From Dissulfurimicrobium hydrothermale (GTDB lineage: Bacteria; Desulfobacterota; Dissulfuribacteria; Dissulfuribacterales; Sh68), in contig NZ_CP085041.1 in NCBI RefSeq assembly GCF_022026155.1, forward strand, positions 1,954,306 through 2,018,305: a DNA stretch of 64,000 bases, written 5' to 3'. The position numbers and the translations under genes are program-made. A model generated the notes under the pieces. That model made no database searches and was not told where the DNA came from. It saw only the letters and a list, made by a program, of their open reading frames with translations. This document shows positions 18,953 through 51,869 of this stretch, piece after piece (position 1 is the stretch's first letter; each line of letters begins with the position of its first letter).

Positions 18953-19444
18953 ATGGCGACGGGCAAAATTATAAATATAGGCGGTGTAAATATAGGGATT
19001 GTAGGACTTGATGAGGCCATCTCACAAATAAGGGCATCCGATCCGACTGGCCGCAAGACCTCTGACGAGGCCGCTATTGAGGTGCTCCATATTATCGAGA
19101 AGAAAAACTACATACCTCTGTCTGCAAGGGACGCCTATATCGAGGCCATTAAAAAGTTATGGAACGGGACCATCGATGGAAATGAGTCTGGCCTATCCAT
19201 CCGCATCCTGGGGCCTGGATGTGTAAGCTGCAATAGGCTTGAAGAGATCGTGAGGTCGGCCCTCGATCAGAAAGACATAGCCGCTGACATCGAACATATA
19301 AAAGACCTGGACGAGATCTGGAGATATGGGGTTATAAGCACCCCTGCCCTTGTTATAAACGGGCAAGTTTTATGTTCAGGCCGTCTCCCTACAAAGGCAA
19401 AGGTTGAGGAATGGCTGCGTGAGGCGCTCTTGCGGTCAATGTAA
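18953..19444 (+). CDS. Thioredoxin-like CxxC protein with extra N-terminal domain
   Basis: The C-terminal 80 residues (81-160) form a small thioredoxin/glutaredoxin-like domain of the redox-active-disulfide type: ILGPGCVSCNRLEEIV with C90 and C93, and the cis-Pro motif in ISTPALVINGQVL. The N-terminal 75 residues (GGVNIGIVGLDEAISQIRA...) are a separate helical domain that I do not recognise. No signal peptide, so cytoplasmic. The 3' end overlaps the convergent ABC ATPase gene by 56 bp. It probably transfers electrons to a protein disulfide; the partner is unknown. Confidence 0.8.
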   Translation: MATGKIINIGGVNIGIVGLDEAISQIRASDPTGRKTSDEAAIEVLHIIEKKNYIPLSARDAYIEAIKKLWNGTIDGNESGLSIRILGPGCVSCNRLEEIVRSALDQKDIAADIEHIKDLDEIWRYGVISTPALVINGQVLCSGRLPTKAKVEEWLREALLRSM

Positions 19445-47581: not shown

Positions 47582-48292
47582 TCAATGGAATATGGGAGAG
47601 AGCAGAAAAGACCATGTATAATAGCCGCCCACGGCAAAAAATACCGCTGCCGTAAGGCTTTTTATCCAGGTCTCAAACACCCTGGCCGTGGAAAAGAGCC
47701 TGCCTGTCACATCCATGCCCAGGGAGAGCAGGATGGCGATAACCACCACAGGGAGGGCCGTGCCAAGGCCGTAAAAGACTGGCATGATCACCGGGCTTTG
47801 CTTTGTTATTGCAATGGGAAGGAGGCTTCCGAAGAACAGGGCCGCCGAAACCGGACAAAAGGAAAGGGCGAAGAGGAGGCCGAGGAACCCAGCGCCGGCC
47901 ATACCGGTCCCGGCCCTGTCCGCGAGGCCCTTCAGCCTATCCCCCTTTGAAAGCCCTATGGCCGGAAACCTGATCCACCCCATCAGCACCGCTCCAATTA
48001 TCAATAACACCGGCCCAAGGACCTGGTTCAGATAGGTCTGGAGAAAATTCGCAACGGCCGGCACTGAAAGGACGCCCCAGGCCAGAAGCCATGCCACGAG
48101 GGTGTAGGCCACGGCCCTGCCGGCGGCGTAACAGAGCGCCTTAAAAAATACCCTGCCTGGCCTTGCGCCACCGGCGCCGCCAGCCATGTAAAAGAGGGCG
48201 GTTATGTTGCTTGCAAGCGGGCATGGGCTGATGGATGTGAGCACGCCGAGCCAGAGGGCGGTCAATGCCGGATAGGAGCTGTTAAAATCCAT
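47582..48292 (-). CDS. arsG: ArsG-type membrane protein, CcdA-like
   Basis: The 236-residue protein has six hydrophobic segments and matches the CcdA/DsbD-like ArsG family (annotated as aromatic-arsenical efflux permease). Two Cys sit in Pro-flanked motifs, C24 in SISPCPLASN (TM1) and one near 144 in LSFCPVSAAL (TM4), the same arrangement as the redox-active pair of CcdA. It may therefore pass electrons across the membrane to the exported selenothioredoxin encoded just upstream (12 bp), rather than only exporting a compound. In Shewanella arsEFG confers resistance to nitro- and amino-aromatic arsenicals; the present function is inference. Confidence 0.82.
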   Translation of the reverse strand: MDFNSSYPALTALWLGVLTSISPCPLASNITALFYMAGGAGGARPGRVFFKALCYAAGRAVAYTLVAWLLAWGVLSVPAVANFLQTYLNQVLGPVLLIIGAVLMGWIRFPAIGLSKGDRLKGLADRAGTGMAGAGFLGLLFALSFCPVSAALFFGSLLPIAITKQSPVIMPVFYGLGTALPVVVIAILLSLGMDVTGRLFSTARVFETWIKSLTAAVFFAVGGYYTWSFLLSPIFH

Positions 48293-48304: not shown

Positions 48305-48769
48305 TCATTTTGCAGCCTTCAGAAATTGGGCCGTTTCATCATGCACATATTTTTTAAGTGCGGTGTCATCACTTGCCAGTTCCCAGACCCTGGCGAGGTT
48401 TTTGTAGCGCACTGAGCGCCCGTTTTCCTGCTCCACAAGCACAAGGGAGCTGGTGAAGAGCCCGAAATCCTTTATGAAGTGCTCGCCCTCAGGGGTTTGC
48501 ACGTTAACTACCTCGAAACTGAGCCTTTTTGCCTTGATGTAATCAGCAAAATCCTTTGTGATGACTTCTTTTGAAAGATCGCCGATCTTTCTGCATGTAA
48601 CTCACTGGTACGTGCCGTGGAAAAAGTAGGCGATGACTGATGGTGCGACAGGGCGCGCATCCGCAGCCCATGCAGCCTTTGACGCCCATGGCGTCAACAC
48701 AAAGGCCACGGTCAAAAAAAACGCCGTGATTACAGTAAGGGCTGCTTTGAAGCGAATTCTCTCGATCAT
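48305..48769 (-). CDS. arsF: ArsF-like exported thioredoxin-fold selenoprotein (Sec56)
   Basis: One frame runs from ATG 48769 (AAGGAG 5 nt upstream) to the stop at 48305, interrupted only by TGA at 48602-48604. Read as Sec it encodes 154 residues: signal peptide (MIERIRFKAALTVITAFFLT, cleavage near AWA-A), then VIAYFFHGTYQ-U-VTC-RKI, a UxTC redox site in the place of the CxTC of ArsF relatives, and a thioredoxin-like remainder (SFEVVNVQTPEGEHFIKDFGLFTSSLVLVEQ). A perfect 8-bp hairpin follows the UGA at the bSECIS position. A normal gene caller would report only a 65-residue GTG-started fragment (48305-48502). Mature protein in the periplasm or on the membrane. Upstream of arsG by 12 bp. Confidence 0.87.
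48573..48604 (-). promoter_or_regulatory. Sec UGA and bacterial SECIS-like hairpin (ArsF-like)
   Basis: On the minus strand TGA (48604-48602) is followed by 10 bases and then GAAAGATC-GGC-GATCTTTC, a perfect 8-bp stem with loop GGC (48591-48573). The loop begins 18 nt after the UGA and starts with G, identical in position and loop size to the hairpin at 45732-45744. Confidence 0.85.
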
Positions 48770-48854
48770 ATTTTCTCCTTTTATTTTAGAGGCGCCATTA
48801 CAACCTCTGTGACATGGTTATAGGTGTTTGTGCGTTGTGCGCGCCAAAAATATA

Positions 48855-49253
48855 TCAAAAACCACAGGAACAGCCGAAATTCTGTATGTCATATCCATAG
48901 TGTTCGAAGGCCTGCCTGAGTTTCAGACGCTGGTTATCGGGAAGGCCGTAATAGAAATGGTTAAGCGCGCTGACTGAGTCCTTGCCTCCGCATATAAATG
49001 AATGAAGCTTCTGCTGCTGATCCGGATCAAGCGAAGCAGAGGTCATGATCTTACTGAGGTCTCCTCTGCAAAGGGTATCTTTGTCCCTGCTTGGCTGAGG
49101 GGAACCGAGCACCGTAAGCCGACTCTCGTTTGCCATCCCTAATTCATGGGTTGAGGTCATCAGCACGGCAGGTTTTGCGCAACCCGAAAGGACAAGGGCA
49201 AGCGTCAAAAAGAGGGCTGATGGAAAGGTCTGGTGTTTTTTTAAAGCTGACAT
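48855..49253 (-). CDS. Cys-containing lipoprotein of unknown function
   Basis: The 132-residue protein has a lipoprotein signal (FLTLALVLSGC, lipobox LSGC at about residue 25). Besides the lipidated Cys the mature part has TLCRGDL, SFICGGKD and a terminal FGCSCGF, four Cys in all. The start at 49253 has AAGGAG 7 nt upstream. No family recognised. It stands between acr3 and the ArsF-like selenoprotein on the same strand, which suggests an extracytoplasmic partner in arsenic/thiol chemistry. ArsE, the usual neighbour of ArsF, is thioredoxin-like and is not recognisable here. Confidence 0.72.
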   Translation of the reverse strand: MSALKKHQTFPSALFLTLALVLSGCAKPAVLMTSTHELGMANESRLTVLGSPQPSRDKDTLCRGDLSKIMTSASLDPDQQQKLHSFICGGKDSVSALNHFYYGLPDNQRLKLRQAFEHYGYDIQNFGCSCGF

Positions 49254-49371
49254 TAGAGACTCCTTTTTCAATCTTTTGCTTATTTTAACAACATCTTGCA
49301 ATGTTACAGACGGCCTTTCTTATCGCATCCGATGGTATGGCTTCATAATCATTGCCGTTCCAAACATTATT

Positions 49372-50448
49372 TTATAATTGTTCTATTTCGCTGACCTTGC
49401 AGTATTGATCGGTAAAATATTTTCTCTGAAAATAAAGCGCCAGGTTTACAAGACTGATCAAGACCGGCACCTCGACCAGCGGACCGATTACTGCTGCAAA
49501 GGCCTCGCCTGAATTTATCCCGAAGACCGCGATGGCTACGGCGATGGCCAGTTCGAAGTTGTTGCTGGCTGCGGTAAAGGAAAGGGTAGCTGTTTTTTCA
49601 TAACCAGCCCCAAACAGCTTTCCAAGATAAAATGATACAAGAAACATGCTGACAAAATAGATAAGCAGTGGTATCGCTATACGGAGTACATCAAGCGGAA
49701 GCCTTACAATATACTCGCCTTTAAGGGCAAACATAACAACTATGGTAAAAAGAAGGGCGATAAGGGTAACAGGACTTATGACTGGAATAAAAGACCTTTC
49801 ATACCACTCCCTGCCTTTGATTTTTAAAAAGACAAAACGGGTAACAATGCCTGCCGTGAAAGGTATGCCAAGATAGATAAATACGCTCTTGGCTATCTCT
49901 AACATGCTTACTTCAACGATTATTCCCTTAAGGCCAAACAACAGCGGAAATTTTGTAATGAATATGTATGCATAGAGGGAATAAAACAGTACCTGAAATA
50001 TGGAGTTAAACGCCACAAGGCCTGCTGCATACTCACGATCTCCACAGGCAAGATCATTCCATACTATCACCATGGCTATGCAGCGGGCAAGCCCTATCAT
50101 GATAAGGCCGTACATATAGTGTGGATAGCCACTTAAGAAGATGACTGCAAGTAAAGACATCAGGATCGGCCCTATGATCCAATTCTGCACAAGGGAAAGG
50201 GTCAAGACCTTTTTGTCTCTGAATACCTTGCCAAGCTCTTCATAGCGCACCTTGGCAAGCGGGGGATACATCATGAGGATAAGGCCTATGGCGATTGGGA
50301 TATTTGTCGTCCCGACCTGAAAAAGATCTATAACGTCCTTTACCGACGGAAAAAAATAACCGCCTAGCACCCCTGCCGCCATCGCAAGGAATATCCACAT
50401 GGTTAGAAACCTGTCAAGAAAACTGAGACGCCTGGTAAGATTATCCAT
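49372..50448 (-). CDS. acr3: Acr3-type arsenite efflux permease
   Basis: The 358-residue membrane protein has ten hydrophobic segments and the Acr3 signature [19 protein letters not shown] with the essential Cys (C123) in TM4, plus [18 protein letters not shown] with the conserved Glu in TM9. It exports arsenite with the proton gradient. GGGAGG lies before the ATG. It is the first gene of the minus-strand arsenic-type operon and has a strong promoter within a palindrome far upstream (190-base leader). No ArsR gene was seen in the window. Confidence 0.93.
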
Positions 50449-50814: not shown

Positions 50815-51354
50815 ATGGCGACCATCTCTTTGAAAAAGATATTTTTGGTCTTCCTTAAAATAGGTACTCTTTCCTTCGGAGGGGTCTATTCCATGCTTGC
50901 CTTTTTTGAAAGGGAGCTGGTTGAAAGGCGCAAATGGCTGACACATGAAGAATTTATTGAAAGCATAGCCATCGGACAGATGACGCCCGGTCCGCCCATA
51001 GTAAATACTGGTATTTGCATAGGTTACAGGCTGCGAGGGATAAAAGGCGCCCTTGCCGCAACCGTCGGCCAGTCGTTTACAGGCAGCGTGCTGGCCATAT
51101 TACTTGCGATCTTTTATATAAAAAACAGAGACAATGTCCTGCTGAATTCGGCCATGAAAGGCGTTGGAGCAGCCGTAATAGGATTGCTGCTTTCAATCAT
51201 TCTAAAAATGGCAAAAAGCACTATCAGGGATTACAAGACGGCGCTGTTTGCCTTGGCCGCCTTTTTTGCCCTCATATTGTTCAAATTGAATCCCATCGGC
51301 CTTATCCTGGCATCAGGAGCACTCGGCTTCGTTGTCTATGGAAGGAGTATATGA
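50815..51354 (+). CDS. chrA: Chromate-transporter family protein, short form A
   Basis: The 179-residue membrane protein is one CHR domain: SFGGVYSMLAFFERELVERRKWLTHEEFIESIAIGQMTPGP. With the next gene it forms a split pair equivalent to one full-length ChrA. The family exports chromate or imports related oxyanions; the actual substrate is not predictable. The stop overlaps the start region of the second half. Confidence 0.88.
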   Translation: MATISLKKIFLVFLKIGTLSFGGVYSMLAFFERELVERRKWLTHEEFIESIAIGQMTPGPPIVNTGICIGYRLRGIKGALAATVGQSFTGSVLAILLAIFYIKNRDNVLLNSAMKGVGAAVIGLLLSIILKMAKSTIRDYKTALFALAAFFALILFKLNPIGLILASGALGFVVYGRSI

Positions 51355-51869
51355 TGGTTTTGCTAAGACTGTGCTGGTTGCTTATCGTCATCAACGCACT
51401 CACCATAGGAGGTGGCTATGTGATGCTTCCTATGCTCCAGAGAGAATTCGTGGAAAAGAATCATCTGCTTACCAACCAGGAATTTCTGGATGCCATCGCG
51501 ATCGGGCAGATCACCCCTGGCCCCATGACCGTTATGAATGCCGTTATCGGATACAAAATCAGCGGTTTGATAGGGGCTATATTGGCAATGCTAAGTTCAT
51601 ACTTGCCGTGCATTATAATTGCAACGCTTGTGACGAAATATTATTACGATTACAAGGAATCGATAATCGTTCAATCGGGCTTCAAAGGGATAAAACCAGC
51701 CGTTATAGGATTGTTGTCAGTAGTGGCCGTTTCGCTTGGACATACAGCGCTTGTGGACCTTCCCACATTAGGGATCGCCGTTATAAGCTTTGCTGTAATC
51801 GCCTTCACCAAGACAGATCCGTCTTTCGTGATCGTCGGGGCAGGGATCCTAGGGGCTATCCTATCATAA
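51354..51869 (+). CDS. chrA: Chromate-transporter family protein, short form B
   Basis: The 171-residue membrane protein is the second CHR domain: INALTIGGGYVMLPMLQREFVEKNHLLTNQEFLDAIAIGQITPGP. Two adjacent ATGs (51351, 51354) are possible; 51354 has AAGGAG (51342-51347) 6 nt upstream. A longer frame to 51015 is a shadow of the preceding gene. The pair ends 22 bp before the stop of the convergent full-length ChrA. Confidence 0.88.
   Translation: MVLLRLCWLLIVINALTIGGGYVMLPMLQREFVEKNHLLTNQEFLDAIAIGQITPGPMTVMNAVIGYKISGLIGAILAMLSSYLPCIIIATLVTKYYYDYKESIIVQSGFKGIKPAVIGLLSVVAVSLGHTALVDLPTLGIAVISFAVIAFTKTDPSFVIVGAGILGAILS

Follow-up and report, generated by a model that had tools for sequence, protein, structure and literature searches.

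A predicted selenocysteine form of the thioredoxin-like protein ArsF in Dissulfurimicrobium hydrothermale and related bacteria

Thioredoxin-fold selenoproteins with a UxxC motif have been catalogued in several groups (Trx, the PF13098 thiol:disulfide interchange protein, DsbG-like proteins, SaoT and HUIPC; PMC13188914), which have in common a thioredoxin-like fold and a Sec residue at the N-terminal position of the active site. The ArsF protein described here would share both features, whereas it has no Pfam match at E 0.1 and belongs to a family, NF040494, that is absent from the 119 prokaryotic selenoprotein families and subfamilies of that May 2026 review. Compared with the ArsF family itself, the Dissulfurimicrobium hydrothermale protein matches over the whole domain, scoring 98.3 bits (E 3.1e-28) against a curated cut-off of 60 bits when translated through its in-frame UGA, and it has the active-site CxTC motif aligned and ArsG encoded next to it; it differs in that the first active-site Cys is replaced by a predicted Sec and in that the gene carries a UGA and a hairpin. 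The membrane protein ArsG resembles the DsbD/CcdA transmembrane thiol relays in that it matches DsbD_2 and keeps two Cys residues, but its partner is ArsF, and electron transfer by ArsG is a putative function. Three published genes with a proposed redox role, discussed as assisting ArsC, the arsenate reductase of the cytoplasm, probably correspond, we infer, to ArsG, ArsF and ArsE; unlike the gene analysed here, they have no reported Sec.

The locus lies in a window of 64,000 nucleotides (64 kb) from D. hydrothermale Sh68T (CP085041), whose single-contig genome of 2,025,450 bases was reported as a finished assembly from Illumina and MinION reads (PMC8780430). On the minus strand the gene order is acr3, a small lipoprotein gene, arsF and arsG. 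The first of these (49372–50448) encodes an arsenite efflux transporter (TIGR00832, 458 bits), and the second (48855–49301) a putative small lipoprotein with the C-terminal sequence GCSCGF, for which searches of Pfam and NCBIfam profiles gave no family above cut-off. The arsF gene (48308–48769) is preceded by a ribosome-binding site, AAGGAG, read at 48775–48780, 5 nt upstream of the ATG. From this ATG at 48769 the frame runs to a terminal TGA at 48307–48305 and is broken only by a TGA at codon 56 (48602–48604), so that readthrough gives a 154-aa protein with the sequence YFFHGTYQ-U-VTC-RKI and the motif U56-V-T-C59. The arsG gene (47582–48292; NF040495, 236 bits; PF13386 DsbD_2, E 3e-11) starts 12 nt downstream of the arsF stop codon and encodes a DsbD/CcdA-like membrane protein whose two conserved Cys residues lie in the motifs SPCPLA and SFCPVSA. 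The first-pass annotation of this DNA had proposed a single frame interrupted by TGA alone, of which conventional annotation would leave a 65-residue fragment, and both points held up: the open reading frames callable without recoding are one of 55 aa (48602–48769) and one of 65 aa with a GTG start (48305–48502). Elsewhere in the window a side-by-side pair of half-length chromate-transporter-like genes was seen on the plus strand at 50815–51869, and an Rfam scan of the 64 kb returned no match.

The strongest evidence for recoding is comparative. In an alignment of 38 homologous proteins, in which U is written as C, the column of codon 56 contains UGA in five and Cys in 33, with no other residue, and C59 is invariant (38/38). 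Proteins of the NF040494 type were found in 15 of the 46 genomes of the order, D. hydrothermale included, and the TGA occurs at this column in five of them (G000, which is D. hydrothermale, G032, G006, G004 and G031), which represent three of its families. G006 holds a sixth Sec gene (L102), which also has the UGA but is incomplete at a contig end. The relatives in G004 and G031 score below the NF040494 cut-off, at 43 and 29 bits, and G031 appears without a stop in the table of profile matches because its TGA precedes the matched stretch. Among approximately 395 genomes of the phylum surveyed, UGA forms were confined to Dissulfuribacterales; a search of genome contigs with the single ArsF protein gave only one Cys relative, and a plasmid search gave one remote ArsF. 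The tree is compatible with either one or two origins of Sec: it calls for two changes, a single Sec clade is not rejected (p-AU 0.48), and the relatives in G004 (L034) and G031 (L035) lie on long branches. The CxTC motif expected of ArsF relatives at the active site and the replacement of its first Cys by Sec, both put forward in the first-pass annotation, agree with the alignment.

Any TGA is by default read as a stop, and the codon could accordingly be a true terminator, or else have arisen by misreading during sequencing or by decay of the gene into a pseudogene. We regard this as extremely unlikely. The TGA is shared by five genomes from three families of the order, among them independently sequenced relatives of D. 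hydrothermale, and the finished genome rests on a hybrid assembly in which the codon is TGA and not TGC. Downstream of the UGA, comparison of D. hydrothermale with G032 gave dN 0.18 and dS 1.26 over 98 codons, and the sequence past this codon is, on such a comparison, under purifying selection; the hairpin that follows the codon covaries among the Sec genes.

This hairpin (48573–48591, minus strand) is of the bSECIS type and has the form GAAAGATC-GGC-GATCTTTC, with eight perfect base pairs and a GGC loop that starts 18 nt after the UGA; the first-pass annotation had described a perfect 8-bp hairpin with a GGC loop at the bSECIS distance. The UGA-to-loop distance equals that of the E. coli fdhF element. 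Among the window's 2349 TGA triplets, counted over both strands, two are followed by eight uninterrupted pairs around a loop that begins with G at +18, namely the arsF codon and one in a frame that does not look coding. All six Sec genes have a hairpin at the same place, with a G-first loop starting 17–18 nt after the UGA and lying on or next to codon +7, which reads GGC, GGC, GAG, GTT, GTC and GTA. At fixed geometry the Sec genes form 8, 8, 8, 7, 6 and 5 pairs and the Cys homologues, which are largely without the hairpin, no more than 6, with a median of 4 (p ~6e-5, computed without one Cys row of 3 pairs, which has no effect). Compensatory changes are present across the Sec genes, and 87.5% of cells are paired, with a covariation score of 0.45 against 0.21 for shuffled alignments, a value reached in 0 of 500 shuffles and at most 0.18 when the structure was slid; this result is supportive only, since it comes from five related sequences. 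Reshuffling of synonymous codons was borderline for the arsF hairpin alone (p 0.05), and such single-gene tests of the hairpins are weak overall (p 0.04–0.42). This null is conservative because some of the residues encoded under the hairpin have also changed, as in the Glu to Gly change at the loop.

The decoding machinery, without which the selenocysteine reading would have failed, is encoded in the D. hydrothermale genome, which contains selA, two selB genes, selD and a tRNA-Sec with a UCA anticodon. The selA gene is found in all five Sec genomes and in 42 of the 46 genomes of the order. An in-frame TGA was also seen in selD (L001:1528-1530, context SGUASKIG), so selD is itself a predicted selenoprotein gene. 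Two tRNA-Sec matches were above cut-off, one of which is a tRNA-Cys with a GCA anticodon, an 8-bp acceptor stem and U73. This selC*-type tRNA (L013:1501-1590) lies directly upstream of the second SelB gene (L005:1500-3471), at about 1461214–1463310 of the genome, in the selC*/selB* arrangement of Mukai et al. (2017) as summarised in PMC7609411. With its own SelB, a tRNA-Cys shaped like tRNA-Sec could in principle insert Cys at the arsF UGA, and such tRNAs may bear an opal anticodon in Desulfobacterales (PMC7609411). The tRNA found here has GCA, which should read UGC/UGU, and the one with UCA is the canonical tRNA-Sec; the second SelB-tRNA pair should therefore not compete for the arsF UGA, and Cys insertion by this route was ruled out on the anticodon, which makes a cysteine reading very improbable. 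The pair may instead deliver Cys at UGC/UGU codons. Our main reading is thus that codon 56 of arsF, a UGA, specifies Sec through the canonical SelB, tRNA-Sec(UCA) and the bSECIS element, to which we assign a probability of about 0.95 on the sequence evidence.

The protein predicted by this Sec reading has a hydrophobic, signal-peptide-like N-terminus (KD-17 = 2.47), as had been anticipated together with a thioredoxin-like fold. The AlphaFold2 model adopts the thioredoxin fold with a mean pLDDT of 87.6, and its top structural matches in the PDB are thioredoxins. Residue 56 lies just ahead of the first core helix of the model, the position at which the active-site residue of a thioredoxin fold is found. 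In the alignment ArsF has no Pro at the place where the usual cis-Pro precedes the third strand.

Further Sec relatives were observed away from this setting. The genes L034 (G004) and L102 (G006) encode a form with the motif UKVC that has no signal peptide and lies downstream of a CBS-domain gene, the L102 copy ending at the contig end, and L035 (G031) encodes a very divergent relative with the motif UAAC and a signal-peptide-like N-terminus, around which no ars genes were seen nearby. The Sec relatives in G004 and G031 do not adjoin arsG. An arsenic operon had been proposed as the context of the gene, and for D. hydrothermale this stands, with acr3 upstream and arsG downstream; it is refined in that not every Sec relative belongs to an ars operon, and in that ArsF itself is not necessarily an enzyme of arsenic chemistry. 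Given these relatives, and because the UKVC form follows a CBS-domain gene and has no signal peptide, the Sec branch may serve several functions.

For the ArsF of the arsenic operon we lean slightly towards a role in an electron relay from ArsE through ArsG to ArsF(U). Electrons would pass from a cytoplasmic ArsE-type thioredoxin to ArsG in the membrane and from there to periplasmic ArsF, where Sec56 would be the residue attacking a periplasmic substrate (an oxidised arsenical, a nitro compound or a disulfide) and Cys59 would resolve the selenylsulfide. The change from Cys to Sec may speed the attack step or give the catalytic residue better protection against irreversible inactivation. Candidate substrates are nitroaryl arsenicals (from the family name), arsenate, and protein or small-molecule disulfides. 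The Cys residues of ArsG in the SPCPLA and SFCPVSA-type motifs are kept among the ArsG homologues listed in the alignment, incomplete ones aside, and a gene of the MTH895/ArsE thioredoxin family (TIGR00412) adjoins arsF and arsG in many loci, including those of G032 and G006. Against the relay, ArsE is encoded outside the arsF operon in D. hydrothermale, beside a permease gene, the G004 and G031 relatives are not adjacent to arsG, and NCBIfam files ArsG as an aromatic arsenical efflux permease. An ArsE-type thioredoxin domain was also seen at the end of a longer open reading frame on the plus strand of the window, at about 19199–19417.

With the UGA still read as Sec, ArsF(U) and ArsE could instead form a nitroreductase for nitroaryl arsenicals, with ArsG as the efflux permease. 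The NCBIfam names say as much (NF040494, nitrophenyl compound nitroreductase subunit ArsF; NF040495, aromatic arsenical efflux permease), and the ArsEFG study of Chen, Zhang and Rosen (2019), as cited in PMC9144182, stands on the same side. The nitroreductase activity is putative here, taken from the family name, and we consider this assignment unlikely: the N-terminus of ArsF is of the export type and its predicted fold that of a thioredoxin, ArsG is of the DsbD_2 type with two conserved Cys, and a hot pond in Kamchatka is not a place where one would expect synthetic nitroaryl arsenicals. The combined statement that Sec is inserted and that ArsE, ArsG and ArsF form a relay with attack by Sec56 appears reasonably probable. 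More tentatively, ArsEFG may be a transmembrane thiol/selenol relay that brings reducing power to the periplasm for metalloid chemistry, whose terminal carrier was shifted to Sec in this order, with the UKVC Sec branch now serving another, cytoplasmic task.

On these comparisons ArsF(U) looks like the Sec form of a known family and like a real subfamily, as the first-pass annotation had suspected: five further Sec genes occur in related bacteria, and the 2026 catalogue lists no ArsF. A literature search, with subscription papers and NCBI protein records outside its scope, found no paper containing both "selenoprotein" and "ArsF" as whole words; ArsF goes unmentioned in the deep-Sep paper, and neither "selenoprotein" nor "selenocysteine" appears in the genome paper of Sh68T (PMC8780430). 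Genes like arsF(U) end up as two fragments under standard gene calling. ArsF and ArsG are at present named as a nitroreductase subunit and a permease, and the relay reading sets a testable alternative beside those names. The finding would also add a selenoprotein subfamily linked to arsenic resistance, whose Cys and Sec forms, both present in one order, allow a direct comparison.
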